Shown in pieces: positions 4,222 to 32,050 of a DNA stretch of 64,000 nt (position 1 is its first letter; each line of letters begins with the position of its first letter). The stretch spans positions 1 to 64,000 of IMG/VR virus record IMGVR_UViG_3300030329_001103. The stretch is one strand, 5' to 3'. Origin of the DNA: a virus. The notes under the pieces are model-generated. The model ran no database searches, was not told the origin of the DNA, and was given only the letters and a program-made list of their open reading frames with translations. Made by a program: the position numbers and the translations under genes.

Positions 4222-4583
4222 GTGATATACAAAGATATAATGTACTTCCCCCATCACAGGAAATACCTGTTGATGCTCCTCCTCAAACCCTACAACCATC
4301 GTTACCTGACTTTGGTTCTTACTCAAACTTAGATGGACGGGCTCAATTATTTTATGGAGCTATTCAAAAGAATTTAAGCGATGTTCAAGAGATGTTTCAA
4401 AAACAATGGGATTGGGAAATGAAACAAAGGCAAGCTGAAATAGAAAAAGAGAGAAAGAGAGAAGAGCAAGCAGCAGCGGCTAGACTGCAGCGAGAACTAC
4501 TAGAGAACCAATGGCAAAGAGAGTTTGATGCTCTTCCTGATTATTCAAGAAATATATATTCTGGAGGAGGATGGGCACTATGA
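4218..4583 (+). CDS. Small helical virion-associated protein, 121 aa
   Basis: ATGA overlap with the previous gene. The N-terminal part is Pro-rich (PPSQEIPVDAPPQ), followed by a long charged helix (about 60-105) rich in Glu, Lys, Arg, Gln and Ala that should form a coiled coil. It may be an adaptor between core proteins. Its 3' end carries GGAGGAGG, the ribosome-binding site of the next gene, again suggesting coupling. Confidence 0.6.
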   Translation: MSDIQRYNVLPPSQEIPVDAPPQTLQPSLPDFGSYSNLDGRAQLFYGAIQKNLSDVQEMFQKQWDWEMKQRQAEIEKERKREEQAAAARLQRELLENQWQREFDALPDYSRNIYSGGGWAL

Positions 4584-7500: not shown

Positions 7501-9241
7501 TCCGGATTTATTTACAGAAGAAGTTACCCCAGAAAACATAGGAAGACTACGGTCTGCTACTATGGCTGTTAAAATGGGTATGTCTCTTTACAATGCTTCA
7601 AAGACAAACCCAGACATTCAAGCATCTTTACAAGGCATGTTAGGTTGGGATGCGGATAAATTTAGCGCATGGCAAAACAATATGAAATGGCTACAAAGTA
7701 ATCCAGAATTTAGTTCATTCATTGGTGATGAAACATTTGAAATGCTATACTCAGAGGATCCAGCTAAATGGGCTGAAGCTATGAGTACTATAAAAGGAGG
7801 AACTACAGAAATTACTGATAAGATGTTATACTTCCTTTCTAAAATGATAGCCGGTTCTGAAATGCCAAACACCGAACAATTGGATAGTTTATTTAAACCA
7901 CGTTCTAGTCTGAGAAATTTAGATTATAATATTACGTCTGATACTTTATGGGAAAAAACTTTCGGAGGCGGTGATACTTGGATAGGATCGGATATAATGG
8001 AAACTTTAGAAAACAATGGAATAGTAGTTACGATATATAATGCTGACGGTGAGGTAGATCGTGAGGCTAATGAAAATAATTTTAGACGGGCTGTAAAGAT
8101 AGACGGAACTATATATGGCGACGATTTTAAGAATAACGGCATATGGGGGGATGAGTTTATTATGCGAGATCGTTGGCGAAAAGGACTAGGAACTTCGCGC
8201 CCTGATATTGTTTACGATGAAGACGAAGTTAGTTATTGGACACAGATGCAAGTAGCAACCTTAGGTGCCTATCTTCAACATGATGAACTTAATGCTGCTG
8301 CTCGAAATATAGTATCTTCTTTAGGTCCGGGAGAAACAATAGATATACCGACACTTATAGATTTACTGGATACGGGAATGGATGTAACTAAAGGACTTAC
8401 TTTCCATGGCATAGAACAGGGATCTAATTTTATGGGCGACGGAAGAGCCGTTAAAGAAAATTATATATTCTCTCATAGAAGCCAGCAAGGTTTATTTAAA
8501 GTAGCTAAAAATAGTCCAAAAGAAAATATGACTACATCTCAACGAGCTTACGAAATTTGGCAAGATGCGCCACTACAAGTAAACAAAATTACTTCCCCGA
8601 GTTTTAAAGAACAGACAGTTAATAACTTTACTGAACACAATAGCTGGGGAACTGTATACACGCAAGCAGGAATAACCGAAGAGCAGTGGACTAAATCAAT
8701 AAACGATATTGTAACAGAAGTAATTGGGGATTATACAAAAGCAATTCCTGTTTTAAATCAAATGGATATTGTAGGACGAAGGCCTCGTACAATGGCTATG
8801 TACGGTTCTATTTTAGATAGGATTTTTGAAACTTACCCTAATATAGATAATATATTTGGACTAAATAGAAATACTTTGGTAGGATATGGATGGGAAGAAT
8901 TAACGAGGGGTACGCCACTAGAAAGTGAAAGACCTCCCCATCTTGAGCTATTAGATTTAAAGTGGTTATATACAAACCTATCGGTAGCTCCAGATGCTCA
9001 TGGATTTCCTAAAACTTTATTTGGCATAGAGCATGATAGATATGCTCCTGGTTGTAATTTACAATATGAAGATGGCTCAGGTAATAAAAATACATGGAAC
9101 TTTCCATGGGCTATTAGTGATTTATCGCTTGGCGCATCACGTATTGGTACTAGTGGAGATAAGATTATATATGACATGGATGGTACGATAATAGGTCAAA
9201 ACAACGAAACTATAATTCAAGGAGCAAGTATAAATGAGTAG
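4580..9241 (+). CDS. Large internal virion protein, 1,553 aa (gp15/gp16 position)
   Basis: The ATG at 4580 overlaps the preceding TGA (ATGA) and has GGAGGAGG at the right distance; the ATG at 4571 lies directly on that site and is unlikely to be used. The protein is hydrophilic, acidic and mostly helical in appearance, without transmembrane segments or a recognisable enzymatic motif; no lytic transglycosylase signature as in T7 gp16 is seen. By position it replaces T7 gp15 (747 aa) and is twice as long. It overlaps the giant gene that follows by 8 bases, so both are probably made together. Confidence 0.75.
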   Translation: MTTPKPRIIDHSKTETGDIIKSLLKAAWYKRPMAAYPGESPYAGAPGTTRGPVVDYKHTGEAKHGGPVYLPGGMEGDTPEEVESWYRQKPAPPSEQIVENIPVPPAVKLNQEMLNLKPREYWQTEEGMNEWMSYAVTDDMSWLESDDEAMNQWRWTFGHYLDTKEPTTQQDYMEEYSRAKVREAFSNRLHNFGLFANDWDDLMLHIDTDGASFQEGDDTDFLDDAIDQTLNLAVNASPWLEHAREETYGNVFSLGSTFNRVLQDWHTNSPVFTANDPQGYYADWQTPARNPNQHSGMTHVRSYDLMPQEQRLLINAAMKDVPIMIPHSAFSLTKQDVAYSDPNYPYPANQPEIDKITEYQEALTNELQSFHVDPKMSQFLTDLEERKTQLSGRETQPGIGGWDPYAAAETQDFSDFYSTYRTYLPQEITDKYDAFVEPDPQLSESQLYDLKSMIKNRVLKRQTLPARVGMESETLSVSLREVLKQLKKENLLPPGLHFPEEGITDKEIDTFAELTVAASQEGKPETFAEELKLMAQNFVESPVGTFLTEGFTDEQVKVMTDVSNHVMDLVGQQEIEAEMNELAMLDNREANEKINKKLEERTANERRYWDKVERDTGMQLGMFGENHKDIFTFIAGLGGPLSAEYEGRSGQFMTMQRMLVANATLKDKTPEQIKAVAMYYLSNGMLSEIMTEGVVDGAITVNPDGTYDLALQKGAFLDNVEQLTSHLIDIQTKAASYNHKKAAELFDAKKSPEDFANWGIVKFWQEEVSADIKSYGDVVDLVNDALYDNDGAFTNDQAIRILKLWNITQEQKANLIKQGNDSDKWSRRASHGINNQGAAVAVHSNPSHLWINGDSSTDDGLGTPGHTALIEMGRNKFHNSVRQYYQQAYGDMYHPEMIPDLEQLGFVSRNNINWDALDSPQAILAENGIPIQHIAGALSHYLLDIHWSSPTPEIGRQQKALVKRINEGMALFKLPDLFTEEVTPENIGRLRSATMAVKMGMSLYNASKTNPDIQASLQGMLGWDADKFSAWQNNMKWLQSNPEFSSFIGDETFEMLYSEDPAKWAEAMSTIKGGTTEITDKMLYFLSKMIAGSEMPNTEQLDSLFKPRSSLRNLDYNITSDTLWEKTFGGGDTWIGSDIMETLENNGIVVTIYNADGEVDREANENNFRRAVKIDGTIYGDDFKNNGIWGDEFIMRDRWRKGLGTSRPDIVYDEDEVSYWTQMQVATLGAYLQHDELNAAARNIVSSLGPGETIDIPTLIDLLDTGMDVTKGLTFHGIEQGSNFMGDGRAVKENYIFSHRSQQGLFKVAKNSPKENMTTSQRAYEIWQDAPLQVNKITSPSFKEQTVNNFTEHNSWGTVYTQAGITEEQWTKSINDIVTEVIGDYTKAIPVLNQMDIVGRRPRTMAMYGSILDRIFETYPNIDNIFGLNRNTLVGYGWEELTRGTPLESERPPHLELLDLKWLYTNLSVAPDAHGFPKTLFGIEHDRYAPGCNLQYEDGSGNKNTWNFPWAISDLSLGASRIGTSGDKIIYDMDGTIIGQNNETIIQGASINE

Positions 9242-12200
9242 AGAGTGGGCAATCAAACCAATTCCTTTAAGCTTTGGACAAAAAGCATTTAATGAATATA
9301 CAGGGGAACAAATACAAAAACGAGAAAACGTGTTGTCTAATTTCCCTTTGTATGCAAAGGATAGGAAAGATATACAATACGGTACTCCTTTTAAACCTGA
9401 AGATTCCCAACAATGGGCTTGGGGTATGATGAATGTTCATACTGCTGTATGGGAAAATATGGCTAACTCATATCCTTCAGGGTATATTGCAGATAATATC
9501 GCATCACATAAACAAAGAGCTAGTGTAATGCAACCTATTACCGGGTATCAAAACCGAAAAGGTTATGAGATGTTTGATGACTCTATGATGGCATTCAAAC
9601 CTGAAGCACAAAAACTAATTGATGGATATGCTGAAGGCACGGCATGGAACATGCTAAGGTTAGGGAACGATTATGGTAGAAACCCCATAGCATTTAATAC
9701 AGGTACTGATCGTAGAGAAGCATTGGGTGGTACGCTTACAAACGAAACTCCAGAAGATTTATTTTTGGATGAACCACCACCAGGATGGAATATTAAAGAA
9801 GCTTTAGAACAACTAAGCGAAATTAATCCAGTTGCATGGGATACTTATAAATTAGTAATGGGTAGTGAAGAAAAAATACATGAGATAGCCGAAGGCAGTA
9901 AGACTCCAGGAGAAGTATTATATAAATTAAATAACTACGTACAAAGCGCCGCAATAATGAACAGCTTAGACAAGAACTTTGAGCAAATGAGCTGGGGCGA
10001 AGAAATGTGGGCACTATATGGTAGGGGTTTAATTGTCAATGGTATTATTAATGATCCCGATATGCCTGCATCGTTAACGGTAAGTTTAGGACTTGCTCCC
10101 TTTACTTGGGGTGGTAGTCTTTTACTTGGACTAGGTGCTAAGTTACTTAAAGCATCAGTATCCTCTATTAAATGGGGCAAAAGATTAAGCAGATTAGCAA
10201 AAATTGCAGGGGGAACAGGAGCTGTTGTATCCCATCTAGCTAAAGTTAGGCATGTCTTGCCCGAAACAGTTGGTCCTACTGTTATGAAGAAGATGTTTAA
10301 GAACTATGATAAATGGAAGGGTGCAGATGAATTCTGGTCATGGAGACAGTTCTCTGTAAATAGATTAGGTGACGCAACAGAAGGTAGTATTACAGGCGGC
10401 TTTGCTGAATACAGTACACAAAGATATGATAAGCATTATGGATTAAGAGATGATATAGATATGAAAGGTGTACTAAAGGAATCTTTAGTTGAAGCGGCAT
10501 TGTCTCCGATTATAAACCCAGCAGTAGGCGGCGTACATCGAGCAATTTTGGGCGGTCCTTTGTATGTAGCTAATAAAACTATGATAGAATATATACCAGA
10601 AACTTTTAGTAAGGGTCTTACAGAAAATTTTAAATCTTTAATGCAAAACTTTGATCCTGATCAAACAGCGAAAATGTGGACTACAACCAAAAAGTTTGTG
10701 CAGCTAGGTGAAGATATTTCAGAATTAACAATGGATGATGTAGACCCTGCGGCACTACAAGACTCTAGTCATATGCTTAACCTTGTCTTAGAAGGTGTTA
10801 TGAATCATACAAACGTAGATCGCGTAGAGGTCATGAACACTTTATCAACTGTGGTTGGAAAAATTAAAGCGGGAGTAAATACAGGAGACGTAGCTAAAGA
10901 TTCATTGTTAGGAGCTATGATAGAATCTAATAAAGAAAACTTTGGAGGAGAAGGAAAACTTTCTCTTGATCAAATGGCTTTCTTATTAGCTGATGAACTG
11001 TCAAGAAAGAAAGGTAAAAACGGTCAACCCAATCCCTATGGAATAAACAATACTAAATTCTTATTAGAGCTAGAAGAAAAACTTGCACACTTTAAGAATT
11101 TATCAGCCTTTGCAAAAGAAAATGGTTTGTCCATAGAAGAAGCTAAGAAAAAGATAGAAGATGAGGGGCTTTTTATAGAAGTATATCCTGGTTTAAAGGA
11201 AGAAATCGTCGAACAAATTGGCGTAGACGAATACGAAAGACTTAAAGAAACAGACGAAGGTAAGTTAAAGCTAAGCGGAATTGCTCTTGATATCTTTAAA
11301 GAAAAGGAAAAACAATTTCAGGAAACAGTTAAAGCTAAAAGAGAACGAGTTGCAGAAGCTCAGGTAGAAGCAGAAGATGCAGTTGCTGAAAATGAAAACA
11401 TATATCTAGATGACGAAGATATTCCTGAAGATGTATCTCTCAAAGAGTTGGAACAATTAAAGGAATGGGTAGAAAATCCTGGGGATGCTACTGTTACGCA
11501 GATAGATGTAAATATTAACACCTACCTTGAGCAAGGCTTGATTAACGAGGTGCAAGCAAACATGCTTAAAAAAATGACTCTTGAGGTATCACAAGGTAAA
11601 AGGGAGATACAGACGTTAACTGCCTTCGAAAACCAAATATACGAAGCATTACCTGCCGACGCGTATGTTGTAACTCTTATAGAGTGGCCTTCCAAGAATT
11701 GGCTTAATGCTGCATATAAATTATCTAAAGCAGGCGTTCCTTTCCACAATAGATTAGCAGAATTACGAGGCGAAGCTCAAGCTACAACTAGCGAAAGAAA
11801 AACTCACGAGATTATTTCTGTAGACGAACACGATAATGGGGCTGATATTAAGTTTAGAAATGACGCAGGGGATATTTTAAACCTATCAATAGAAGTATTC
11901 GACCACGCAGTAATGATTGATGGTGTGCCGGAATATGGGAAGATGATAGAAGGTCATTTTTCAGCAGAAGATCAGACGAAGATAGACACTATGTCTGGTG
12001 ATCCATTTACGGTTCTTAATACCGTAGGAGAGCAGTTGTTACTTTATGCTAAAAAGTTTGATGTGGATTTTGTTAGAATTATGTCTCAACAAGGTGAAAC
12101 AGAAACTAGAAAACCAGGTGGGCCAAGTGCAAGGGCTAGAATATACCAAAGAATGTTAAATAGAATTGTTGGCGAAGTTAAGCCAATTTCTTCAGACGAA

Positions 12201-15200
12201 GCTACTGGAACTTTTGTATATCGTTACTCTGATATCTTAGAAGCACAAAAGCGTACAGCTGGAGAAGGGGAATCAAAAGACAAGGAAGAAGTCCCAGAAA
12301 TTATTATACCTGCGTCACGACAAGAAGCTATTGCTAAAATAGAAGATTATATAAAAGACTTTCGAGAAAATTTCAGCCTTTCAGAAGATGGTTCTGAATA
12401 TATAGACAACGCAGGCAATATTTTCGAGAGAGTTTCTTCTGTTATCGAAGAACAAATAGGAGAAATAGATCCAGAAGCTGCCGCATTAAAAATGGGTACT
12501 CTTATAGATGATGTTGCTAGAGATTATATTACTAATCCAGATGAAGCAACAAAACCAGAAGGATGGAGCGACGAAGCATGGGAACAGTTTAAAGACGTAT
12601 GGGATCCGATTATCCAGCAATGGAAAGACGAGGGACGTTGGTATACAGCAGAAGAAACAACCTTTGGTTCACTAGATGCAGGTGGCAGCGGAAGAAGTAT
12701 TGCTGGCACTACTGACATTTTAACTATCACTGAAGATGGTAAAGTTGAAATCTTTGATATCAAAACAAGTAAATACGATACTTCTGAGTGGGATACAGAA
12801 TTTGGTGATAGGCTATCTAAATCCGAACGATATAGTAAACAATTATCTCTTTATGCTACATTAGTAGAAGAAGCTTTAGGACTTGAAGTAGCAGAAATTA
12901 CTGCTATTCCGCTAGAACTAAATTATAACGAGACTGATCTGATTCCTATTAGCATTACTAAGAATAATAATGTAGGACTACGGTTATTAAATAATATTAG
13001 AATTACTAATGGAGGTCTTGTTAGTAGAGGAACGGATGCAAGGAAATCTCCGCTATCTACTCCAGCTCCTGAAGAAACTGAAGAAGATGCGCCAACTGAT
13101 TTCCAAAAATGGCAAGACAGGTTAGATACTAGTATAACTAAAACTCAAAAAACTATTCATGATTTAACAGAAGAAAATAAAAGTGAAGATATTCCTGAAG
13201 AAAAGAAAGAAAAGAATATTGATATAATTAAGAAACTAAAAGAATCTTTAAAGAGATTGGATAGTGCGAGACGTAAGTATAAAAAAGAAATTGCTGAGTG
13301 GGAAGCACTGGATGAAATTACTCCAAGGATAAAAGACTTGCATAAAAAGATGCTAACTTTTGAAAAAGAATTAAAAGATGCAGAACGAATTCTTTATAAT
13401 AATCCTGAGTATATCTATATAGTAGAACTACACAAAGCGTTAGGATCTGGACAGACACATATACAAGGATTAATACGCCATACTTGGGATAAAGAAGCAG
13501 CAGATAATTTAACTAGAAACCAGTGGATAAAACAACGACGAGAAGCCTTAATAGCAGAACAAGAAACAGAAGAAACGAAAAAAACAGATGATGAAATAGA
13601 GACACAGATTAAAGAAGAAGCTAAAGAATTTGAAAGAGAAGTTACTTTAGATGCTATAATTGAGGAAGGGTTTAGACCATCCCTCGCTTTAATGTTAGAC
13701 AATATTCCAGAAGAAAGTTTAATTAATGTAGACGACGAAGGCAATCCGGTTTCTAATAAAAATATTATAACCCAACTACAATCACTTTTAGCAATAGAAA
13801 AAGATCCCGATCCTTCTGAATTCAGTAACATGACAAAGCTTAAAGAAGCTATACTAAGTTTGCCTGATGTAGAAGTAACTAAAACTGAGTTAAATAAAAT
13901 GAACCGCGGTGAGTTAAATGAACTCTATATTAAACTAAAAAAGAAAGCAGACAGAAGCGGTAAAGTAATTTCCCGTACCGTGTTATTACAAGCTCACCAA
14001 GAAGCGGATGCTAAGTTAACACAAATGGGTTTAGACATTCAAGGTACTGAGGCGTTTATAAATCTATTAGAAGCTAAAGATAAATTAGAACAAGCTAGTA
14101 CAGAATATAATATTACAAAATCTGCTTTACAGGACGAAGCTACTAAAACTAGAGGCATGGCATTAAGATCTATAGGAGATTGGCAAGAACTTCTAGCGGT
14201 TCAAGCGGTTTTAAAAAGATATATAGATTCATCAATTGCTTTAGTTGAAAATGGAGAAGTACAAACAGCTAGAGATATAAGAGATATCGCACCTGCTGGA
14301 TCAAGGTTAAGAAAAGAAATCAATAAAATTATTCTTGAGATGGAAAACGATGAAGGTCCTACTAATAACGATTTAGATGCCGCTAGAGAAAAAGCAAAAA
14401 CTCTGGAGGATGTATCATGGGAAGATGCAATAAACGGTATACTGCATAAATTACCATGGTCGTTTATAACAGATAGAGCTGTGTCTATACTGGATTCTGA
14501 TTTAGAGACCGGCGCAGAAACAAAACGAAAAAATTGGATTTTAAATGGACTCGAACAAGAAAGAACTAGAATCAGTAATCTATCTCCTGAGCAAATGTGG
14601 AGAACACAAGTTCCAAGAAACTTACAATACTTAGCTAAAACTAAACTACATCAAATGTCAGAACAAGATTGGCTTACTGTAGAAGCTGCGGATATTACCG
14701 GTCGTGATATTGAGTTATATGATAAAAAAATATTCGGCGCTGAAGCAGCGGCTAAAGAATTAGAAGCTTTAGAAATTATTAGTAATCATTTAAACGATAG
14801 ACGTAGTGGATTAAATCCAGATCAACCAATTAGATCAGCAGAAATTCGTAAGTGGGCTGAGAATACAGCATATGGAGAATGGGCAGTTTCACCTTCCGTC
14901 TTATTTAAACAAGCAATAAGCAAAGAACATGAGATAGATTTAAATAAAATAACTGACGACGAGCTAGCGAATTTGGAAGTTGAAATAACTTTTGATGCAG
15001 ATCTATTAGTTGATGTTATTCGAAATCTTCTAGAAGAATCTTTAGTATATAATTCTTACTTTGGTCGTAAAATTCCATCAAGGTTAAGAAAAGCAACCGT
15101 CGGCGAAACTCTTAAATCTTTAAGCTTAAAGCGAAACAAGGATGGATACTTCCCAGCGAAAGAAGCTAGAAGACATATTAAAGATATGTATGATGCTGTA

Positions 15201-18200
15201 TTGCCTATACTAAGAGAAAGGGCAGATGAGTTTGGGTTTGTATATGAAGTCAATGAAAACACGCTATGGCCTAGTGAATCTTCAGGTCCGCTGGAAGGAT
15301 TAAGTCCAGCGGATAGAGGTAAGGCAGAAGCTAAATATGAAAACGTAGCTAGAAATGCTATGATTAAACGTATACTTAAATACTTATCTAAAACAGGAAC
15401 AAGAACTTTAGTTGATAATATAATGGAAGAAGTCGGTTACATAAAAGAAAAAGATGTAACTAATCAACAGTTGGCTATGATACTAGCTGATAAAATACTT
15501 TTAGCTATTCCTAGTATAACTGAAGATAACTGGACAATCAGTAGCTTTGGTGATGGTACTGTAGATTGGCAACCCGCTAAGGATGCAGGAGAAGGATTAG
15601 TAGATTACTTTAGTATGAAATCTCTTGTTACTAAACGCCATAAAGTAAGTATCATTCAATATGATGATGGAAGATTTGGTATTGAAGTAAACGGTATACT
15701 AGATACAGATGAACACGAAAGTACAGCGATCTTAGCTTTGACTAAAGGTCAGGGCAATATGCTTGCGCTTATTCCACTATACGAAAGATTAAGCATAGCT
15801 GAAAATAGTAGAACTAGATTTAGAATAGAAAAGATTACCAATATCATTAATGCTCCAGAAGAAGTACAAGCGCAGTATAGAAAAGAGTGGGAAGAAAAAA
15901 TTAGAAACACCAAAGTTGAGGCAGCTCTTCCTGAGGGAGCAGGGGTAATGATAAGAATACCAGATAAAAGAAATCCTATTTATTCTGGCGCTATACCTAC
16001 CGAAGATAAACTTGCAGCCCACTTCTTCCCCAACCTATTATTACAAACTACAGAAGAAGAGTTCTTAACAAGAGAAGAAATATTAGATGCCGGTATGTAT
16101 TATATGCTTGACCTGCCTAACTTAAGTCGTGCATACATCCAAGACTCTGTTACCTATTCAGCAAAAGCTAAAAAGAATAGACGGCTAAGTGCTGAGGTTC
16201 CGACTCATGTTCAAATAACTGAAGAAGTAATTACTAAAGATGGTATAGAACGTAAGAAAGTAACAGGCATATCAATGGGATCTGACTTTATTTTACCTCC
16301 GCATGAGATCCTTGTAAACGCTATCTGGGAAAATATTGGAGGATCTTATCAAAATGTATTTGATCTAGCTATGGAAAGTTACGAAATAACTCGAAACCAT
16401 TTAATAGAAAAACACGGCGAAGAAGCATTTACAAAAGGTAAGATGTGGAATAGAGATGTCATGCATGATGATAGAAAGAGTAGTGTATGGTGGGAATTCA
16501 TGATGATGGCAGGTGCTTTAAATCCTAAGGTACAGAAAACCATTGATACTATTAGACAACAGCTAGCCAATAAAACATATGGTGGAGAAAACTTTAAACA
16601 AAACTTAGACGATCTCTATATTGAAAGTGGTATATATGTTGTCGGTAGTATATTCGATGCGCCTCAACATAAAGACAGATCTTTAAGTATTCCATCCTTT
16701 ATGTCTATCTTTAACAATCTACAAAACATTAAAGATAGAACTGATTGGGATAGAATATATGAAGCTGCAGATACAGACCAACAAAAACAAATGGATGTTA
16801 TTAGAGACTTCTTTAAAATACCTGCACTACGAACTATGTATACAGGCGGCATGAAAGCTTTCTTAAGTACCTTTGAAGGCGAAAAAGAAGAAGGAACTAA
16901 GTGGCTGCAGTCAGCTTCGGAAGTATTCGGTATTAATATTAAAGATCTTAGAGCTGAATTAGAAAACCTAAGTAAAATTCTTTATGAGAATAGTTACATT
17001 GAGACGGGTATTTTAATGGAGAATGCGCTAGGTATGGATGAAGAAATCCGTTCAGAGGTGCTAAAGTTCATGGAAACAAAACAAGATGAATCCGAATTGA
17101 TTAAAAAATCAAAAGACATCTTGCAAGCTGTAAGTAGAGATCCTGAAAATATAAATAATATTATTGGATTAAACGGTATCCTTGAAGTTATGGAAGCTAG
17201 TGTAGCACATTGGGTAGAACTTGCTTATCCAGAAGGAGCTACACCTGCCAATATGAAGAAAGCAAAGAAAAGATTAGTTAATGATCCTTTAGAAAAGAGT
17301 AAGAGATATTTAACAAAACTTAAAGCAAAGGGTATTGCAATACCTTCTGGAATGAAAGATGAGCATTGGCAATTCCTTCATGAGCTATGGCTACCAAAAG
17401 AATTTAAATCCTGGCAACATATGGATTTATTTAAAATGTGGAATATCATGTTATCTGGTGCTTGGCAAATCAACGCAAAGAACATAAGTCAAGTAGCTAA
17501 GACCTATGGTATTATGGATTATAAATTAGAACATCTAATGGGATTACCAGAACAAAATATATATCTAAGGCAACGTCCTCAAGATACTGCTCAACGTGCC
17601 TTTGATGAGTATGGTATCTTACCAAACAATAAAGGTATTAGGTTTGATAGAGCAGAAGTAGATGCTGACAAGTTAGCTATCTATGTAGAAGAACGCAAGC
17701 AAAGCATGAATCAAGCTGAGTTTAAAAAAGATCCTGAGTATTACTTTAATCAATTTATATTAGAATATATGGAACAAGATAAAGATCATCGTGCCGCCTT
17801 AGGTGCTTTCGATCTAGTCGATAGTCCTATGCATAAGATATATCGAGATGCTAAAAAAGAAGGAGCTACAGATAAACAAGCATGGGATAAAGTTAGAGCC
17901 GAATTGGATAAGATGCTTTGGTATGAAGAAATGTTAACATGGTCAGAAAAGTATCCATTACCTTTTGAAGATTATACTATTGAAGATTCAAATGCAGAAT
18001 TCTATAGTCACTTTATGAATTCTTGGAATCAAAGCTGGGAAGAAAGGGCAGGTACTCTACCTGCAGAATTGCAGCAGGAAAAACAAGCTAGAAAAGAAAT
18101 GAATGATAAGCCATGGAGAAAAGAGTTTATTGAGGGTAGAGTTAAAATGGGACGTTCTCTTGTAGTTGATCCTAAGAGACCTCACATTAATCCTTATGCT

Positions 18201-21200
18201 GTTGTTGAATATGACGATGCAGTCGCTAGCAAATATGATCATCCACTAACTGTAGATAGTGAAAACAGTAAAGGTCCTATATCATTTATTCCTAAGATGA
18301 ATAACTATTCATTTGCTAATAGAGGTATGATGGGATTGGAACTAGCATTGAGAACGAGAAAATTAAACGAAAGAATGGACCCAATTGAACAAGTTTTAGC
18401 CAATACAAATGAAACATTGTCTACTAAAGAAGGAGCAGAAGAAGTTATAAAGCCTTACTTAGAAGGACGAAAACCATCTATCGCTGCTCCAGAATCCGCA
18501 CTAGGTCGTATAAGTCCTTGGAATCTTAATACTATTCCAGAACCACTGCCACCAATTCCGCAGTATATAGTAGAAGAAGCTTTGGAGTTAGACGATACAC
18601 GTCTGGGACAAGAGGTTGGTAGGTTCTATCAAAGAATAACTGAGTATGCTAGAAGTATTGGAATGGAAGATGAACTAGATAATCCCGAAGCATGGCCTTT
18701 CTTAAACTATATGTTACGAACTCAGAACGTAATAAAACGAAATCTTCAGTTTACTAAACGAGGCGCAAGTAAAACACTAGGAGAAACTCTAGCTATACGT
18801 TCTAGATTTAAAGAAGACTTCTTAGAAATCTCTCAACTATCAAGAGACTTACGAGAAGAGACAAGAGATGTTATGGATTTAGAAACACCAGGGAAACCTT
18901 TAGGGATTCATAAGCCGCCTGTCGATATGACACTCGGTGAATTCTTAGGCAGTAAACCTACGAGTATGACAGATCCTACTCCATTGATTGATCACACTCT
19001 TCTATGGGATCAACTTGACTTTACAGTACCCGAAGAAAGTGTAGTTGATCAAGCTACTTTAATTGATGAGCAAGGTAATGAACATCCAATTGAATCTAAG
19101 ACATCACAATTCTTAACTAATATTAACTTTAATAAAGACTTTATTAAGTACGCTGTTTCATCCCTATTAACAGAAGCTTATGGTGTAGAAGAAATCAGAA
19201 AATTCAAAGATGGTAAATATGCAAGCTTAGTAGAACCAGGTTCAGAAAATCTAGACAACTACTTTGATATCATAGATCAATTTAGTTTAGAAGATCTTCG
19301 GGAATTGTTATATAATATTAAAAACGGTGCTAAAGAAAGTCCTGTATACTTACATATGGACTTACGTTTGATTCGTGAACTAGGTGAAGCATCCCCAGAA
19401 AAACGAAAAGAAATGGCAGATCATTTATTTGTAGGTATTGAAAACGCAGAGTTGGCAACTACGAATGAAAAGACTGGTATTAGGCATAAGTTTAAGCATA
19501 GAGAAGGTGGTATCTATTCTGGTATGCATGCATGGTTAGCTGTACCTTCTAGAGTTAAAGGCGATACAGCTAGACTAAGAATAACACCAGAAGGTTTAAT
19601 ACGTATGGTTATGACATTAACTAACTCTGATTTACTTTGGAGAGCACAGATGTCTGCCATTAGTGGAAGATCTCTTGGCGTTGATGTAGACTTTGATGGC
19701 GCACCTATTAGTACTGTTGCCACTTCTAGATTGGTAAGAGAAAACGAAGGAGCTAATAATGTTCGTCGTATTCGAAAACGATCTATCCAAGAAACTACTG
19801 CTTTAGATATTATCATGGGTAAAACCGAAACAGGAAAACCACAACTTAGAACTGTAACGTCTGGTCGTAGTACTATCCGTTCAGCGGCAGTACGTCACGT
19901 AAATTACGGAGACTATCATCATCCTCGACATAAAGGAAGACTACAAAACTTTGTGATTGATGAAGTGTATTACGGTATTGCTAATGGGTTAGTGACGCAG
20001 ATTAATACATTAGGTAATGGCGATTTAAATACCGCAGTAGATAAAGTACAAGAGTATATACATAAAGCTAGAATGGGAGAAGCTCATGAAAAGAATGTTA
20101 TTGATATACTTGCATTAACAGTACTCGCTAATTCAGACGGAAATAATTTCCATCAAATCGATGTAGATACTCTTACCGCTTTCTTATATAATGAAGAGAT
20201 TGGTAATCCAGATTCTACGAAAGTTATTACAGCAGCTCGTAATGAAGCATATGAGTTATATAGAAACTTACAGTCTTTAATCTCTAAAGACGAACATGTC
20301 TGGTCTGGTAATGATTACGATGCACTTGCGGCTGACTTTGTTTATAAACTCGCTGCAAAAGAATATCAATACCCAGATAATCCTAAACTTAATATGACAG
20401 CCGAAGAAATGGTAGATCAAATGTATGAAGATTTCTTTAAGAGAGTAGACCAAGAAGCTCCTTTAAGAATAGACGCTACTGAAGTAATTGTAGATGTAAT
20501 GCAAAATCTTGGTATGTCTCAAGAAGATGCTCTTAAAATGCCTGAGGTAGTAAATTACCAAGAATGGTTAGCTGATACTAATAAGACATATCAACTAGAT
20601 ATTGAAACTGACCATACTAATGAAAATATTATTTCTATTGGTATTAAAGAAGGATCTAAAGAAACTAGATATGTAGGAAACAGTAGTGAATTCTTAAGTC
20701 AGAAACAAGCTCTAGCTATACTTAAAGCTATAGAAAAGAATCAGCAAGACGGTTATAAGGTTTCTGCCTATAACGGTGTTAGCTTTGACTGGAGAATACT
20801 TGGAAAGGTAGCTGGAGATCATAACTTAGCGGCACGAATTGCACTAAGAAGTATAGATCCGTTTGAAAACTTAAGGTCATTTAAGAGTAGGAATAAAGGA
20901 GTGGGATACCATGCATGGCATGGATTAGAAGCGGTAGCCGAAAGACTAGCTAAGAAACCATGGGAAAAGAGTATGGATGGTCTTGAAGCTTATCTCTATT
21001 GGCTAAGAGGGCAAGGTATTGAAATAAATAAAGAGTCTGTTATGAAATATAACATAGACTTAGATAAAATAAAGAACTTAAAAGAACATAAAGGTAAAGG
21101 TAATAGTGCTGTCTTTAAATACTACAATGACATTGAACCTTCTGACGCTACGACAAAACTAAAGAAGTATACTAAGGAAGACGTAGACATACTAAATGAA

Positions 21201-24200
21201 GTCTATCACGCATTAAACAAGAAGACTAATCAACAAGATAGAACTTCTCACATTGGAGAATACAGTGTTACTATTGATCAGATGTATCCTACTTGGTTCT
21301 TAGATGCTAGAAGAGATCTTGAGTATAAAGGACTAGGAGAAGAAAAACTTTTCTTTGCAGAATGGGATTCAACTATCAAAGAACAAATACTTGAACTCTC
21401 AGGCAATATGAGAAAATCTAATTTCAGTAATGTTATTGCTAATGGAGATATCCGTAAGAATAAAGATCTAGCTTTAGCGGCTTTACATAAAGCTATTGGA
21501 CGCGAAGAAGAAGCAGAAATAAATTCTGTTAGTGAATGGATTGACTCTAAAGTAAAGCACGAGTTTAAAGATATTGCTACTGCTTCTGCTGCTAATGATC
21601 ATTTATATAAATACGAAGAAATCCATAGAGGACAGTTAAGAGATATCTTTGATCACATAAACGAATTAGTTACAACACATGAGGCATTAACAGAACATGA
21701 TGCTATGTTAATGCGGGATCTTGTATTACGTATTTATCATGTCAATCCGTTTAACATCCTAGATCTTCACATAGTTAATCAGATTAACGAAGAGAAAGGT
21801 GTACCTGTATCTGGCGCTATGAAAACAGAAGAGGGTAAGTTTGAAATCAGGATTGGTAAAGGCTTTGTAGATATCCAAGAAATTGGTGGCGGACGAGCAC
21901 CCCTTATCTTTGCACACGAACTAGGTCACGTAGGTAGATTAAAATGGATAGAGTCTAACCGAAAAGAATGGAGACAGTATCGTGATATAATGCATAGTGA
22001 CGGTGGTAAAGAATTTATCAAAGCCATGGTACAAGCATTCAATGAAGGTCGATGGGATGCAAAAGCTGAAAAAGAATACGAAAGATATACAACTGATGTT
22101 GAAGAATTTATGGCTGCAATGTATGGATACTATATGCTAGAAGGGCAGCTACCTGCTTATACGGAATACTTAGATTCTACTAAAGGTAAGAAAGCTTTAC
22201 CGCCAGGATACCATGACGCAGAAGATAAAAGTTGGAGTATCCTAAGAAGAATCTTTGACTTTGTTTTAAATAGATTACAACGAGTTGCTAATGTCTTTAG
22301 AGTATTTAGACACCAACATCCAGAAGCAGCCGAAGTTTCAGAAAAGCTTATTCAAAGAATGTTAGGATGGTCAGCAGACAATACTGCTCTTATACAATAT
22401 GCTAGCGATGTTCCAACTGGTGAACTGATGTTCATGGAACCTCGATTCCCTCAGGTTGAAGAAAAAGCTCCTGTATATGATGATGCATTTATCATTGAAG
22501 CATGGCAACGAATGAAAACACTAGAAGCAAAAGCAGCTACAACTACAGGATTAACCAAAGAAGAAAATCATGAATATGGAGAAATTGTTAGACTAATAAA
22601 CTCCGATGAAATGTCAACACCCGATGAACTAAATACTACTAGGTGGGAACGTGTGACTGTAATGAGCGATATAATGGACAGAGATATGTTAGATCCTGAA
22701 TCTAAATCTATGTTCGGAACCGATGCTGCTATGAGTCTTCCTGATTTGTTTTATGTGCTACATACTGTAAACGAAGAAACGCTAACCCCAGCTACAGCAC
22801 TTGAGCGAAGGGTTCTTGCTTCTCATATATTAAGAACCACAAAGAAAGAATTTGGCTATCAAGTAAATAATTCTGCTGGTGAAGCTATGAGAGCTGCAGG
22901 TAAATTCTTAAGCAAGATGGGACAAAAACTTGGAATTGCTGACAGCGAAGAGGCTATCAGTCAGCTAATGACTGACGTACTCGTAGGTAATACTGGAGCT
23001 AACTATACCTTTAATTCTCTATTCACAATTCCTATTATGCTAACATCCTTATTAGAAAGTAAGGTTGCAGGAATGAGTGGCAACTATACTAACATATTTG
23101 GACAAAGAGATATTTCAGGAAGTCTGCGACAATTAGAAACTTGGAGTAGTGCAATCGGTGCTATTACGAACGAAATAATAATAGAAGTCGGTGGAACTAT
23201 AGATAAGATTGCAGGTAAAATAGTAAGTGAAGGCAATAAGAATATCATGGCTGATATTTCATTTAAAATTCTACAGGCTGTTCAAGGCGAAATGGATACG
23301 AAAGATTATCTTAAGACGTGGGAATTAGATATTCCTGAATTAGCTGATACTGAAGTTCCTGCTAAAGCTTTAGAAATAGCTAGACTTTTACATAACCAAT
23401 TGACTTTCTTCCAAGCAGAAGGTACAGCATTGGGTATGTTTAGTAAATTTATGCATGCTATTCCTATGCAGTTACAAAATAGTATCTGGACTGAAGGCGA
23501 AGTAGGGAAAGGTTATACTACTCTTAGAACTGAAATGCGTAACGAAGTTCAGAAACGTATTGAAGACCCAATAAACTCATCACTTGTTGAGCCTACTTTA
23601 GTTTATGCTGCTAACTTCTTACCAGACTTAGATCAAGAAGGTATGGCTGATTGGTTTGAAAGTATAGCTATAAATAATCCTAGTCAATTACTTATGGGAG
23701 ATCTAGTGGCTACTAGAGCACTACAATATCTTAAACAAATAGGTACAAAGGATTGGGTAACTCGAGATCAAGTTACTGCACTTACAGCTAGAATAAGAGC
23801 TGGTGAACATAAGGTTGTAGCTGCTGTGCGAGTTGCTACAAAAAGTATTATGGATGGCTTTGGAGAAAAAAGAATTGACTGGGAATTCTTAAAGAGACAG
23901 CAAGATAGAAGCGCAGATTATGCCGGTGCTTATAAAGGTTTAAAGGATAGATACAGTGCAATACTAGATTCAGAAAACTATTCTACTGAAACCGCTTTGT
24001 CAGTAAAAAGAAAGCTAGCTCAACTTAGTTCACATTCTCTTGGGCTAGGTTTAGAAAAGTATTACTTTAAATCTAGAAAGGGTAGTAGTGTTCTTCCTAT
24101 GAATAGTGATACTCCTATTGATTTAATTACTAGTACTATGTTAAGTCGAGCAGCGGCAGGTATGTACTTTGTTAATGATCTATGGGTTGTACCTAATCCA

Positions 24201-26318
24201 GTTAAGATAGCTGAAAACAATCCAGTAATCCGAGAACACTTAGTACTCGATCCTGTTCAATTGACTGAAGGTATGAGAAGAGGTGTCGGTAATAAGATCT
24301 TTGAACAACAATTAGTTCAAGATATGTTCGGAGTAAAGGGAGACTTCCCGCTTATCCTCGACTTATTTGAGAAGGTATTTGAAGATGGTGTACAACTCCT
24401 GAATGCTGACGGTACGGTCATTGATAGAGCTGGCTCAGATACAATAGCTAAAAGTATTGAAGAGCTAAGAGGCAAACACGACTTTGTTCAAGGGCTGCAA
24501 GAAACTCCAACTACTAGTAGTAGAGTTGAAGAGTTTATATATAATATTGCTCCCTCATTAACTAAGATAGCTTTTGCTGTAAACATGCCTATTGCTTCTT
24601 ATACCTTCGAAGGTTTAATGTCATCCTTTATTGAATTAGTAGGTAAAAGAAACTTTACAGGACTTATAAGAGGAATCTTATCTCCTGCTTGGTGGGCAAC
24701 CCAAAGTAAAGCACAGAAAGCTTCTAAGCTTAGGGATATTATTCGATATACTCAAGCGTTTAATAGAGCGTGGATTCCTGAATGGGATCGACCAGCGACT
24801 CAACCCAATCCTGGAGCACTCGAAGGATTTATCCAAGGATGGGGAGAACAGATGATGCGACCGGCTCAGTGGATGCACGAAGCAATTGCTGCCACTAGAA
24901 GTGAAGACTATAGAAATCATCTTAGAGGTTTACTAGAAAATGGTAATAATTCTAAGCTAGCTCGACTAGTAACTGCTATTGAGAATGCACAAAGATCAGG
25001 CGCAGTAATTGATTACCGAACTCAACAAATGGTTGAAGGAGCAACAGCTGAATTAGAAACTCCAGATACTTTAGACGAGCTAATGAAAAGCAGAGAAGTC
25101 AATATACCAGAAGGTATGAGAGGTATAGTTAGATCTCTGTTTAACAGCGGAATGCTTGTAAGAGAGAACTTTACTCTATTGCAAAAAATGATTGAAGATT
25201 CGAGAAAACATTTCCGTAGTCAAAATATTGATACCTTCTCGCCAGCAGAAATGCTAAGCCATGCTTCTGCTCTATATGACCTACGTAATTCTACTGGTTC
25301 TAGTAAGGGTGACTCACAGCTTGATAAATTTAAGAATCGTTTGTTAATTATCCAAGCTCTTTCCAGTGCGGAACAAGATTACATCCAAGAAGTTATGGTA
25401 TCCCCTAACGCCTTTGATGTGACTACAAGACGAGGCATAGGTCTTGGTGGCTTCTTATACGAGATCTTTAGACGATTCCCTGTGCTATTCATATGTCAGC
25501 ATATCTTAAGAAAAGCTAAACACAACTCGCTTGCTAGATTAGGTCTGATGGTCGTTGGTATGCTCATATTAGATACTATATATATGATAGCACTTAGAGC
25601 AGCTATGGGTATGCCTCTTGAAGATCTATTAGAAGAATTTGAAAAAAATCCTGCATCATTCCTAGGTAAACTAGCAGCTCGCTGGCCAATCTGGGGACGC
25701 TATGGACAGATAATAGCTGAAGTCATAAGCCAAATATCAGGCAATATCTCATCTTCACCGGGATCAATGATTCCTGCAGGTGCTTTAGCTACTACATTAA
25801 ACCAAGCATTGAAAGCACTTAAGAGTGGTATCATCGCTCCCGCTAGTGGAGAAGATGTAAACTGGCAGGATATAGTGAACTCTACACGATTGATACCGTT
25901 GGTTGGTGATACCTTCCTAAGACTAATCTTCTATCAGACACTAGGACAAGGTATAGAGCGTAAGAAGATGGGAGGGGGCACAAGGTCATCTCGAGAGGCA
26001 GAACCTAATACAGAGCACGTAGGGGCTACTGTAGGCTCTCTCATGTATAACTGGGAAGCTATTACAGAAGCACTGCTTGAGGAAGTAGCTGTAGAAGAAC
26101 CATTAGGGTTGCCTTATTACCCTGGAAACCCTTCGATGAACATGTTCCAACCTGATCCAACTCCGGTTAAACAGCCGTTAGATTCCCAGCCTCCGTTACC
26201 ACCTCAGACTGACATGCCGATATCGCAACCAGAACCGGTAGCTCCTATAATGGACAGGCTTGAGGAAGCAGCGGGTGCAGCAGGAGGTACTGAACTAGCA
26301 GATCGACTAGGGGGTTGA
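9234..26318 (+). CDS. Giant 5,694-aa polyvalent internal virion protein with two nuclease domains and a metallopeptidase motif
   Basis: One uninterrupted 17.1-kb frame, over four times the length of T7 gp16 (1,318 aa) whose place it occupies. Visible parts: a hydrophobic segment (about 278-310); a RecB/Cas4-like PD-(D/E)XK nuclease (about 1085-1245) with D1161 in GTTD, D1175/K1177 in FDIK and Q1203/Y1207 in QLSLY; a coiled coil (about 1285-1400); an aspartate-rich DVDFDG at 3484-3489; a DEDDy 3'-5' exonuclease (about 3783-3990) with D3789/E3791, D3852 and Y3979/D3983; an HELGH zinc-peptidase motif at 4228-4232 with candidate third ligand E4290 or E4291; a transmembrane region (about 5430-5460); and a Pro-rich tail. 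It would be packaged in the head and injected. Combined nuclease and peptidase modules fit the polyvalent-protein concept. The ATG has AAGGAG upstream. Confidence 0.9.
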   Translation: MSREWAIKPIPLSFGQKAFNEYTGEQIQKRENVLSNFPLYAKDRKDIQYGTPFKPEDSQQWAWGMMNVHTAVWENMANSYPSGYIADNIASHKQRASVMQPITGYQNRKGYEMFDDSMMAFKPEAQKLIDGYAEGTAWNMLRLGNDYGRNPIAFNTGTDRREALGGTLTNETPEDLFLDEPPPGWNIKEALEQLSEINPVAWDTYKLVMGSEEKIHEIAEGSKTPGEVLYKLNNYVQSAAIMNSLDKNFEQMSWGEEMWALYGRGLIVNGIINDPDMPASLTVSLGLAPFTWGGSLLLGLGAKLLKASVSSIKWGKRLSRLAKIAGGTGAVVSHLAKVRHVLPETVGPTVMKKMFKNYDKWKGADEFWSWRQFSVNRLGDATEGSITGGFAEYSTQRYDKHYGLRDDIDMKGVLKESLVEAALSPIINPAVGGVHRAILGGPLYVANKTMIEYIPETFSKGLTENFKSLMQNFDPDQTAKMWTTTKKFVQLGEDISELTMDDVDPAALQDSSHMLNLVLEGVMNHTNVDRVEVMNTLSTVVGKIKAGVNTGDVAKDSLLGAMIESNKENFGGEGKLSLDQMAFLLADELSRKKGKNGQPNPYGINNTKFLLELEEKLAHFKNLSAFAKENGLSIEEAKKKIEDEGLFIEVYPGLKEEIVEQIGVDEYERLKETDEGKLKLSGIALDIFKEKEKQFQETVKAKRERVAEAQVEAEDAVAENENIYLDDEDIPEDVSLKELEQLKEWVENPGDATVTQIDVNINTYLEQGLINEVQANMLKKMTLEVSQGKREIQTLTAFENQIYEALPADAYVVTLIEWPSKNWLNAAYKLSKAGVPFHNRLAELRGEAQATTSERKTHEIISVDEHDNGADIKFRNDAGDILNLSIEVFDHAVMIDGVPEYGKMIEGHFSAEDQTKIDTMSGDPFTVLNTVGEQLLLYAKKFDVDFVRIMSQQGETETRKPGGPSARARIYQRMLNRIVGEVKPISSDEATGTFVYRYSDILEAQKRTAGEGESKDKEEVPEIIIPASRQEAIAKIEDYIKDFRENFSLSEDGSEYIDNAGNIFERVSSVIEEQIGEIDPEAAALKMGTLIDDVARDYITNPDEATKPEGWSDEAWEQFKDVWDPIIQQWKDEGRWYTAEETTFGSLDAGGSGRSIAGTTDILTITEDGKVEIFDIKTSKYDTSEWDTEFGDRLSKSERYSKQLSLYATLVEEALGLEVAEITAIPLELNYNETDLIPISITKNNNVGLRLLNNIRITNGGLVSRGTDARKSPLSTPAPEETEEDAPTDFQKWQDRLDTSITKTQKTIHDLTEENKSEDIPEEKKEKNIDIIKKLKESLKRLDSARRKYKKEIAEWEALDEITPRIKDLHKKMLTFEKELKDAERILYNNPEYIYIVELHKALGSGQTHIQGLIRHTWDKEAADNLTRNQWIKQRREALIAEQETEETKKTDDEIETQIKEEAKEFEREVTLDAIIEEGFRPSLALMLDNIPEESLINVDDEGNPVSNKNIITQLQSLLAIEKDPDPSEFSNMTKLKEAILSLPDVEVTKTELNKMNRGELNELYIKLKKKADRSGKVISRTVLLQAHQEADAKLTQMGLDIQGTEAFINLLEAKDKLEQASTEYNITKSALQDEATKTRGMALRSIGDWQELLAVQAVLKRYIDSSIALVENGEVQTARDIRDIAPAGSRLRKEINKIILEMENDEGPTNNDLDAAREKAKTLEDVSWEDAINGILHKLPWSFITDRAVSILDSDLETGAETKRKNWILNGLEQERTRISNLSPEQMWRTQVPRNLQYLAKTKLHQMSEQDWLTVEAADITGRDIELYDKKIFGAEAAAKELEALEIISNHLNDRRSGLNPDQPIRSAEIRKWAENTAYGEWAVSPSVLFKQAISKEHEIDLNKITDDELANLEVEITFDADLLVDVIRNLLEESLVYNSYFGRKIPSRLRKATVGETLKSLSLKRNKDGYFPAKEARRHIKDMYDAVLPILRERADEFGFVYEVNENTLWPSESSGPLEGLSPADRGKAEAKYENVARNAMIKRILKYLSKTGTRTLVDNIMEEVGYIKEKDVTNQQLAMILADKILLAIPSITEDNWTISSFGDGTVDWQPAKDAGEGLVDYFSMKSLVTKRHKVSIIQYDDGRFGIEVNGILDTDEHESTAILALTKGQGNMLALIPLYERLSIAENSRTRFRIEKITNIINAPEEVQAQYRKEWEEKIRNTKVEAALPEGAGVMIRIPDKRNPIYSGAIPTEDKLAAHFFPNLLLQTTEEEFLTREEILDAGMYYMLDLPNLSRAYIQDSVTYSAKAKKNRRLSAEVPTHVQITEEVITKDGIERKKVTGISMGSDFILPPHEILVNAIWENIGGSYQNVFDLAMESYEITRNHLIEKHGEEAFTKGKMWNRDVMHDDRKSSVWWEFMMMAGALNPKVQKTIDTIRQQLANKTYGGENFKQNLDDLYIESGIYVVGSIFDAPQHKDRSLSIPSFMSIFNNLQNIKDRTDWDRIYEAADTDQQKQMDVIRDFFKIPALRTMYTGGMKAFLSTFEGEKEEGTKWLQSASEVFGINIKDLRAELENLSKILYENSYIETGILMENALGMDEEIRSEVLKFMETKQDESELIKKSKDILQAVSRDPENINNIIGLNGILEVMEASVAHWVELAYPEGATPANMKKAKKRLVNDPLEKSKRYLTKLKAKGIAIPSGMKDEHWQFLHELWLPKEFKSWQHMDLFKMWNIMLSGAWQINAKNISQVAKTYGIMDYKLEHLMGLPEQNIYLRQRPQDTAQRAFDEYGILPNNKGIRFDRAEVDADKLAIYVEERKQSMNQAEFKKDPEYYFNQFILEYMEQDKDHRAALGAFDLVDSPMHKIYRDAKKEGATDKQAWDKVRAELDKMLWYEEMLTWSEKYPLPFEDYTIEDSNAEFYSHFMNSWNQSWEERAGTLPAELQQEKQARKEMNDKPWRKEFIEGRVKMGRSLVVDPKRPHINPYAVVEYDDAVASKYDHPLTVDSENSKGPISFIPKMNNYSFANRGMMGLELALRTRKLNERMDPIEQVLANTNETLSTKEGAEEVIKPYLEGRKPSIAAPESALGRISPWNLNTIPEPLPPIPQYIVEEALELDDTRLGQEVGRFYQRITEYARSIGMEDELDNPEAWPFLNYMLRTQNVIKRNLQFTKRGASKTLGETLAIRSRFKEDFLEISQLSRDLREETRDVMDLETPGKPLGIHKPPVDMTLGEFLGSKPTSMTDPTPLIDHTLLWDQLDFTVPEESVVDQATLIDEQGNEHPIESKTSQFLTNINFNKDFIKYAVSSLLTEAYGVEEIRKFKDGKYASLVEPGSENLDNYFDIIDQFSLEDLRELLYNIKNGAKESPVYLHMDLRLIRELGEASPEKRKEMADHLFVGIENAELATTNEKTGIRHKFKHREGGIYSGMHAWLAVPSRVKGDTARLRITPEGLIRMVMTLTNSDLLWRAQMSAISGRSLGVDVDFDGAPISTVATSRLVRENEGANNVRRIRKRSIQETTALDIIMGKTETGKPQLRTVTSGRSTIRSAAVRHVNYGDYHHPRHKGRLQNFVIDEVYYGIANGLVTQINTLGNGDLNTAVDKVQEYIHKARMGEAHEKNVIDILALTVLANSDGNNFHQIDVDTLTAFLYNEEIGNPDSTKVITAARNEAYELYRNLQSLISKDEHVWSGNDYDALAADFVYKLAAKEYQYPDNPKLNMTAEEMVDQMYEDFFKRVDQEAPLRIDATEVIVDVMQNLGMSQEDALKMPEVVNYQEWLADTNKTYQLDIETDHTNENIISIGIKEGSKETRYVGNSSEFLSQKQALAILKAIEKNQQDGYKVSAYNGVSFDWRILGKVAGDHNLAARIALRSIDPFENLRSFKSRNKGVGYHAWHGLEAVAERLAKKPWEKSMDGLEAYLYWLRGQGIEINKESVMKYNIDLDKIKNLKEHKGKGNSAVFKYYNDIEPSDATTKLKKYTKEDVDILNEVYHALNKKTNQQDRTSHIGEYSVTIDQMYPTWFLDARRDLEYKGLGEEKLFFAEWDSTIKEQILELSGNMRKSNFSNVIANGDIRKNKDLALAALHKAIGREEEAEINSVSEWIDSKVKHEFKDIATASAANDHLYKYEEIHRGQLRDIFDHINELVTTHEALTEHDAMLMRDLVLRIYHVNPFNILDLHIVNQINEEKGVPVSGAMKTEEGKFEIRIGKGFVDIQEIGGGRAPLIFAHELGHVGRLKWIESNRKEWRQYRDIMHSDGGKEFIKAMVQAFNEGRWDAKAEKEYERYTTDVEEFMAAMYGYYMLEGQLPAYTEYLDSTKGKKALPPGYHDAEDKSWSILRRIFDFVLNRLQRVANVFRVFRHQHPEAAEVSEKLIQRMLGWSADNTALIQYASDVPTGELMFMEPRFPQVEEKAPVYDDAFIIEAWQRMKTLEAKAATTTGLTKEENHEYGEIVRLINSDEMSTPDELNTTRWERVTVMSDIMDRDMLDPESKSMFGTDAAMSLPDLFYVLHTVNEETLTPATALERRVLASHILRTTKKEFGYQVNNSAGEAMRAAGKFLSKMGQKLGIADSEEAISQLMTDVLVGNTGANYTFNSLFTIPIMLTSLLESKVAGMSGNYTNIFGQRDISGSLRQLETWSSAIGAITNEIIIEVGGTIDKIAGKIVSEGNKNIMADISFKILQAVQGEMDTKDYLKTWELDIPELADTEVPAKALEIARLLHNQLTFFQAEGTALGMFSKFMHAIPMQLQNSIWTEGEVGKGYTTLRTEMRNEVQKRIEDPINSSLVEPTLVYAANFLPDLDQEGMADWFESIAINNPSQLLMGDLVATRALQYLKQIGTKDWVTRDQVTALTARIRAGEHKVVAAVRVATKSIMDGFGEKRIDWEFLKRQQDRSADYAGAYKGLKDRYSAILDSENYSTETALSVKRKLAQLSSHSLGLGLEKYYFKSRKGSSVLPMNSDTPIDLITSTMLSRAAAGMYFVNDLWVVPNPVKIAENNPVIREHLVLDPVQLTEGMRRGVGNKIFEQQLVQDMFGVKGDFPLILDLFEKVFEDGVQLLNADGTVIDRAGSDTIAKSIEELRGKHDFVQGLQETPTTSSRVEEFIYNIAPSLTKIAFAVNMPIASYTFEGLMSSFIELVGKRNFTGLIRGILSPAWWATQSKAQKASKLRDIIRYTQAFNRAWIPEWDRPATQPNPGALEGFIQGWGEQMMRPAQWMHEAIAATRSEDYRNHLRGLLENGNNSKLARLVTAIENAQRSGAVIDYRTQQMVEGATAELETPDTLDELMKSREVNIPEGMRGIVRSLFNSGMLVRENFTLLQKMIEDSRKHFRSQNIDTFSPAEMLSHASALYDLRNSTGSSKGDSQLDKFKNRLLIIQALSSAEQDYIQEVMVSPNAFDVTTRRGIGLGGFLYEIFRRFPVLFICQHILRKAKHNSLARLGLMVVGMLILDTIYMIALRAAMGMPLEDLLEEFEKNPASFLGKLAARWPIWGRYGQIIAEVISQISGNISSSPGSMIPAGALATTLNQALKALKSGIIAPASGEDVNWQDIVNSTRLIPLVGDTFLRLIFYQTLGQGIERKKMGGGTRSSREAEPNTEHVGATVGSLMYNWEAITEALLEEVAVEEPLGLPYYPGNPSMNMFQPDPTPVKQPLDSQPPLPPQTDMPISQPEPVAPIMDRLEEAAGAAGGTELADRLGG

Positions 26319-31454: not shown

Positions 31455-32050
31455 AGGTTAGGAAAGGGTGAGCGTATACATGCAGCCCTGGGTGAGTGTG
31501 ACTGTGATTGACAGCCCGAAGTGCGGTGGAAGAAACTCACAGGAGATGCGGCAACTGTATCTATAAACCGAGAAGAGTTGCGAACCTAACCTAAGTGATA
31601 GTGGTAGGTGTGCAATGCTATTCGCAAGCAACCTACTGCTATCACTAACGATTAACCCGGAGTCTAAATCCAAGACTCAGTAAACTGGATACCAGAGCAC
31701 AACTGGTACATCAAAGCCTACGGTATAACGCTGGGATACAGGTATGTAAAGCGACGGCTTCGATTCGTCTGTAATACCTGCCAGCTTCCGCCGTAGTAGA
31801 CAAACTATTTATAGGCACGACGGTGCCGTCCGTGGCTGAATAAGCTCTGTGATAAGGAGCTAAGGCACACACTAGACTGTGGTGGTCTGACTGATGCACA
31901 TAATGTGTGAGGTCATCCTCGTGACTGAGGATATGGTGGTAGGTGGTTGTAATACAAGAGTATTATCCCTCTGCCTTGCAGGTATACCTGAATCCTGCCG
32001 GACACTAATCTACTATACAGTCAAGCGTATGGCTGTAGTTACACTGGTCC
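31455..32050 (+). ncRNA. Candidate large structured noncoding RNA, about 600 bases
   Basis: No gene fits here, but the + strand is full of long pairings: AGGTTAGG/CCTAACCT closing a 138-base domain (31455-31462 with 31585-31592); GCAACT/AGTTGC (31551 and 31576); a 16-bp helix with two G-T pairs (31594-31609 with 31631-31646); GAGTCT/AGACTC (31660); a three-part helix CTACGG, GCTGG, CAGGTAT with their partners (31718-31745 with 31774-31796); AGCTC/GAGCT (31843); ATCCTC/GAGGAT (31915-31932); GTAATAC/GTATTAT (31949-31966); TACAGTC/GGCTGTA (32016-32037). It looks like an ornate phage RNA of the GOLLD/ROOL size class, but membership is not shown. A terminator lies before it and the next gene starts 19 bases after it. 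Confidence 0.65.

Follow-up and report, generated by a model that had tools for sequence, protein, structure and literature searches.

The window, that is, the whole stretch of 64,000 bases analysed here out of the 65,854 bases (65.9 kb) of an uncultured-virus record, contains a gene at 9234..26318 (+ strand) for a protein of 5,694 aa (644.8 kDa, pI 5.1, 1 cysteine). This giant is probably a virion protein of the polyvalent kind that takes the place of gp16 in an ejection apparatus of the T7 type; it would be packed into the particle, threaded into the host and refolded there. Ejected multi-domain giants are already a known kind; as far as tested, the novelty appears to consist in such a size for a T7-type phage, in a conserved layout with two ports and a measured turnover of the cassettes in them, and in the clade itself.

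A single intact gene at the end of the internal-virion block

The gene consists of one open frame with an ATG start and zero internal stops, in a window without any N, and its codon-position composition is of the coding type along the whole frame. An AGGAG precedes the ATG by 10 nt, and the start overlaps the preceding gene (4571-9241) by 8 nt. Since chance cannot yield a frame of such length, the 17-kb frame is real. An assembly artefact, or missed stops fusing separate genes, might be suspected from the extreme length and the single metagenomic record, but this explanation, to which we assign a probability close to nil, is refuted by the coding composition throughout and by 14 further giants that are intact on other uncultured-virus contigs and show the same block order, which excludes a sequencing or assembly join. 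The uninterrupted 17.1-kb frame given in a preliminary description of this DNA is hence confirmed, and the sequencing error considered there can be dismissed. A comparison of lengths among relatives, also proposed there, gave 4,559-5,825 aa for 15 distinct giants, the window's included.

The phage is T7-type. Its genes include an 813-aa T7 RNAP, primase-helicase, PolA, portal, scaffold, capsid, gp11, nozzle, a T7 tail-fibre N-domain and TerL, the latter being ~40% identical to named phages and no closer. The gene order (nozzle, fibre, terminase, internal proteins) differs from that of T7, with terminase and fibre preceding the internal block. In this altered T7-like order, the terminase large subunit (756..2444, +) comes first in the block and is followed by a 250-aa protein in the gp14 position (2456..3208, +; N-terminus Gly/Ala-rich, zero Cys), by a 337-aa (3208..4221, +) and a 121-aa protein (4218..4583, +) of the internal-virion block, both with zero Cys, by a protein in the gp15 position (4571..9241, +; 1 Cys) and, as final member and in the gp16 position, by the giant. 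A large gene thus does precede the giant, as had been described, but its product has 1,556 aa when counted from the first ATG and not the stated 1,553 aa of a core protein; no profile match to T7 gp15 was obtained for it. Counterparts of this protein in the relatives have 1,256-1,631 aa and 0-2 Cys.

Relatives of the giant

A search of IMG/VR with TerL yielded 22 contigs at 69-78% identity, and the 15 distinct giants result from this search together with searches using the C and N blocks defined below. When the giant itself was used as a single-protein query, the IMG/VR scan found no relative, whereas the terminase query succeeded. Likewise, comparing the whole giant with 50,697 phages by megablast and tblastn gave no match beyond the nuclease domain. 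Identity to the window giant was 18-23% over ~4,300-4,800 aligned residues for the 12 giants first measured. Searches for C-block relatives in bacterial genomes found none, in keeping with a clade of lytic phages. All relative records with a length of 57 kb or more encode a T7-type RNA polymerase of their own. This polymerase is split across two frames in the 82,250-bp record G005, which may join two phages; G005 also contains, at L044:1-3846 (-), a 1,282-aa frame with zero cysteine that is related neither to the giants nor to the 1,300-1,600-aa proteins.

Constant blocks and two variable ports

All giants have three constant blocks in common, namely N (~490 aa), core (~1,800 aa) and C (~1,540 aa), which add up to ~3,850 aa; block and port lengths were taken from the alignment to the window giant. 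The N block (9234..10703, +; aa 1-490) measures 450-551 aa in the 15 giants and contains, in several relatives, an NDPDxxAS motif and a hydrophobic stretch, so that it is possibly a membrane part. The core block (14919..20375, +; aa 1896-3714) varies between 1,751 and 1,966 aa across all giants. The C block (22524..26315, +; aa 4431-5694), which is all-helical in its model and has a hydrophobic segment at aa 5432-5460, is the best conserved part of the giants (1,499-1,590 aa when aligned to the window). An RNA-polymerase-like 'DFDG' motif near aa 3470 was dropped because relatives do not keep it, and Pfam matches to PAS_7, BREX_BrxC_helical, Ntox11 and XkdW, all weak and below cut-off, were disregarded.

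Port A (10704..14918, +; aa 491-1895) lies between the N and core blocks and is of variable length, with 704-1,912 aa among relatives. Port B (20376..21620, +; aa 3715-4129) follows the core block and is filled in the window giant (415 aa); it is filled (335-432 aa) in 5/15 giants and empty (81-137 aa) in the other 10. In a tree built from the constant blocks, where the window giant sits on a long branch and is placed unsurely, the state of port B changed at least four times and clustered no more than in shuffles. Even two giants that are ~51% identical overall differ in this respect, port B being empty in L038 and filled in L075.

Enzymes in the ports

A PD-(D/E)XK nuclease domain is located at 12294..12941 (+; aa 1021-1236). 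In tblastn searches it was 22-28% identical to crAss-like phage proteins of the gp47 type (best E 1e-7), and the metal-binding D, D-x-K and Q residues are common to the window giant and these proteins. The nuclease occupies port A in the window giant and in L039, and port B in L072 and L036. Port B of the window giant holds a DnaQ/RNase_H_2-type DEDDy 3'-5' exonuclease domain (20541..21263, +; aa 3770-4010; RNase_H_2 match with E 9e-8) with the motifs DIET (3789), NGVSFD and YTKED (3979), and this exonuclease is also present in L075 and L039. Giants of relatives carry ART-PolyVal domains (PF18760, 3e-26), two in L038 and also in L075, in port A by position; PF18760 scored above cut-off in three relative records from two lineages and not in the window giant, and no LPD domain reached threshold.

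Given that most of the giant is helical with no known domains and that port B may be empty, the protein could be seen as a purely structural component of the ejection tunnel, with the enzyme-like ports being inactive spacers or relics. Distinct enzyme families in the same ports speak against this, as does the fact that the nuclease, the exonuclease and the peptidase all have intact catalytic residues, and we regard it as improbable. The several enzymatic modules that had been described for the giant can accordingly be named as a nuclease, an exonuclease and a metallopeptidase.

The metallopeptidase

A zincin-type metallopeptidase (21621..22523, +; aa 4130-4430) with HELGH at aa 4228 and an invariant E4291 follows port B and precedes the helical C block. 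HExxH...E is kept in 12/13 giants, with H, E, E and A being invariant and the E..A pair situated about 62 residues past HExxH. The sole exception is L039, in which the second histidine is missing (HELSE); the peptidase is hence not required in every giant. The best PDB fold for its model (pLDDT 70.6) was the lethal-factor zincin (prob 0.99, E 3e-3, which is above E 1e-3), so that, with moderate confidence, the domain would be a zincin of the lethal-factor type. This assignment agrees with the zincin superfamily named for the metallopeptidases of polyvalent proteins and N4 vRNAP (PMC5512222).

The conserved metallopeptidase between the ports and the C block would also suit a polyprotein which the zincin cuts during assembly, the virion then holding separate core proteins. 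Phage P1 DdrB, which is cleaved prior to packaging, offers a precedent for this (PMC5512222). Against it, N4 vRNAP with its comparable metallopeptidase is packaged unprocessed (PMC5512222), but N4 is a lone precedent. We consider a polyprotein unlikely, although less so than a purely structural role.

Relation to T7 gp15 and gp16 and to N4 vRNAP

The preliminary description placed the giant where T7 has gp16. This holds for its position as last internal-virion gene and does not extend to homology: hhalign gave probabilities <1% against five gp16 proteins, and no Pfam lysozyme/SLT match, that is, no transglycosylase, was found in the window's giant or in those of its relatives. The label 'gp16' is thus positional only. 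Profile searches revealed no homology of the giant to T7 gp15 or to the C-terminal domain of N4 vRNAP either, and no RNA_pol match, which would indicate a single-subunit RNA polymerase domain, lies inside the giants, the PF00940 matches falling on separate ORFs. The giant's HExxH does align with that of N4 vRNAP, at an hhalign probability of 5%.

Comparison of the giant with PDB sequence profiles gave no match, nor did a PDB fold search with the C block model (pLDDT 61, all-helical). Among viral models (BFVD), the best matches of the C block were fragments of two uncharacterised long proteins of uncultured phages (E 2e-10 and 4e-6); more weakly matched were an internal core protein of the T7 type (prob 0.97, E 4e-3, TM 0.23) and an SLT transglycosylase protein of phages. 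The model thus hints at a faint resemblance of the C block to the T7-type internal core protein fold. Because homology to the N4 and T7 proteins is not demonstrable, we claim that the giant works like N4 vRNAP and the T7 ejected proteins and is polyvalent by its domains, and make no claim that it is T7 gp16.

Comparison with known systems

The best functional parallel of the giants is the N4-type vRNAP (gp50, Schitoviridae), which is likewise huge (3,500 aa) and free of cysteine and which, in N4, is packaged and ejected and is believed to become unfolded in the tail (PMC12633501). Its order of N-terminal membrane domain, enzyme, HExxH zincin and ~1,100-aa helical C domain is similar to that of the giants, which have port enzymes and the core where N4 vRNAP has its polymerase. 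In contrast to N4 vRNAP, the giant contains no RNA polymerase, its phage having the separate 813-aa T7-type enzyme, and possesses two ports and 5,694 aa. The size, called unusual in the preliminary description, does exceed what is known, yet with the ejected N4 vRNAP it is not without parallel. T7 gp16 and its relatives in P-SSP7 and LUZ100 are also the last and largest internal-virion genes with zero or one cysteine, but have 1,200-1,320 aa and, in T7 gp16, the transglycosylase missing from the giant.

The gp47 of phiCrAss001, a 262.5-kDa cargo that mass spectrometry detected in virions (PMC10172136), is large and helical and carries the homologous PD-(D/E)XK nuclease. It differs in its size of 2,341 aa and belongs to a different phage order, and sequence sharing is limited to the nuclease, as no homology to the giant was found outside this domain. 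Polyvalent proteins (Iyer et al., 2017, PMC5512222) are also long and multi-domain with a zincin and exchangeable effectors, and share ART-PolyVal with the relatives' giants, whereas the giant is larger and sits on a T7-type virion; DnaQ is not mentioned in the text of that paper. The idea of a polyvalent protein, raised on first inspection of the DNA, gains support from ART-PolyVal in relatives, the zincin, the swappable nucleases and the nuclease in common with a proven crAss virion cargo.

Cysteine scarcity of ejected proteins

From its own base composition the window giant would be expected to contain ~71 cysteines, while only one is present (P 1e-29). All 15 giants together have 6 cysteines in 76,455 residues, and the window's five internal-block genes 2 in 7,958 residues. 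Most of the remaining annotated genes of the window encode 0.5-3.8% cysteine, some shorter structural proteins having zero too. The same scarcity is seen in proteins that are ejected according to the literature: cysteine is completely absent from T7 gp15 (688 aa read) and gp16 (0/1318), N4 gp50 (vRNAP, 0/3500), gp51 and gp52, and P22 gp7, gp16 and gp20, and the crAss virion cargoes gp46, gp47, gp49 and gp50 contain 0-3 cysteines (gp47 1/2341). Ten N4-type C-terminal domains and the proteins of P-SSP7, HTVC200P, LUZ100 and CRP-227 that correspond to gp15 and gp16 have zero as well, whereas tail fibres, terminases and replication proteins show normal counts.

Enzymes of the polyvalent kind would also suit host takeover by a cytoplasmic early anti-defence protein that never enters the virion. 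The late structural gene position beside terminase and internal proteins, and a scarcity of cysteine as in proven ejected proteins and unlike in the phage's cytoplasmic enzymes, render such a protein very improbable.

The reason for the scarcity might be passage of the unfolded chain through the oxidising periplasm. We tentatively suggest, with slightly less than even confidence, that proteins ejected by short-tailed phages into periplasm-bearing hosts obey a general cysteine ban, imposed by the oxidising space that they cross unfolded, with the giants as its extreme form, in which exchangeable cassettes for nuclease, exonuclease and ADP-ribosyltransferase, nearly all of them cysteine-free, occupy the two ports of a chain of 5,000 residues. 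Near-absence of cysteine, as displayed by the giant, is proposed here as a criterion for ejected proteins and is not an established one. A partial literature search found no paper stating such a rule, although isolated instances may be on record; the structure papers on N4 (PMC12633501) and crAss (PMC10172136) do not use the word 'cysteine'. As a feature common to T7, N4, P22, crAss and the giants, cysteine scarcity offers a mark of ejection that is simple and can be tested and, if the ban is true, absence of cysteine would serve as a sequence-only test for ejected virion proteins.

Proposed role

That the giant is present in the virion and is ejected, which targets its enzymes have and that it may cleave itself are points that we infer. 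As a polyvalent virion protein, the giant would be packed in the capsid, threaded mostly unfolded through tail and envelope alongside the other internal proteins, and refolded in the host. Packaging, passage across membranes and assembly of the ejectosome would fall to its constant blocks N, core and C (~3,850 aa). The exchangeable port enzymes, here the PD-(D/E)XK nuclease and the DEDDy exonuclease and in relatives ADP-ribosyltransferases, would hit host DNA or host factors within the first minutes, possibly acting against host defences. The zincin beside port B would most likely cleave the giant polypeptide, or a host protein, after delivery.

T7 gp16 is present in about four copies per particle. 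If T7 copy numbers apply, the giant would add ~2.6 MDa to the core, which is within the 5.5 MDa at which the phiCrAss001 cargo was estimated (PMC10172136). Ejected whole, it would be a 645-kDa chain passing through a T7-type tail, compared with 383 kDa for N4 vRNAP, and this would lend more weight to the question of how proteins of this kind unfold and then refold. With their filled and empty variants, the two ports provide a natural series for probing what the early injected enzymes do.

Further features of the phage genome

Several features outside the internal-virion block were observed in addition. At the ends of the 65,854-bp record a 62-bp exact repeat is found (1-62 and 65528-65589); a clean terminal direct repeat was rejected, as the sequence diverges past these 62 bp. 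A manA RNA motif (RF01745, 78.8 bits vs. a cut-off of 55.2) is located at 31814-32008 (+), in a GC-richer stretch ahead of the early genes. Among the latter, 36526-37512 (+) encodes a DUF932 protein (PF06067, E 2e-41; phrog_1221), and a gene resembling class II (B12-dependent) ribonucleotide reductases is present at 49056-50972 (+).
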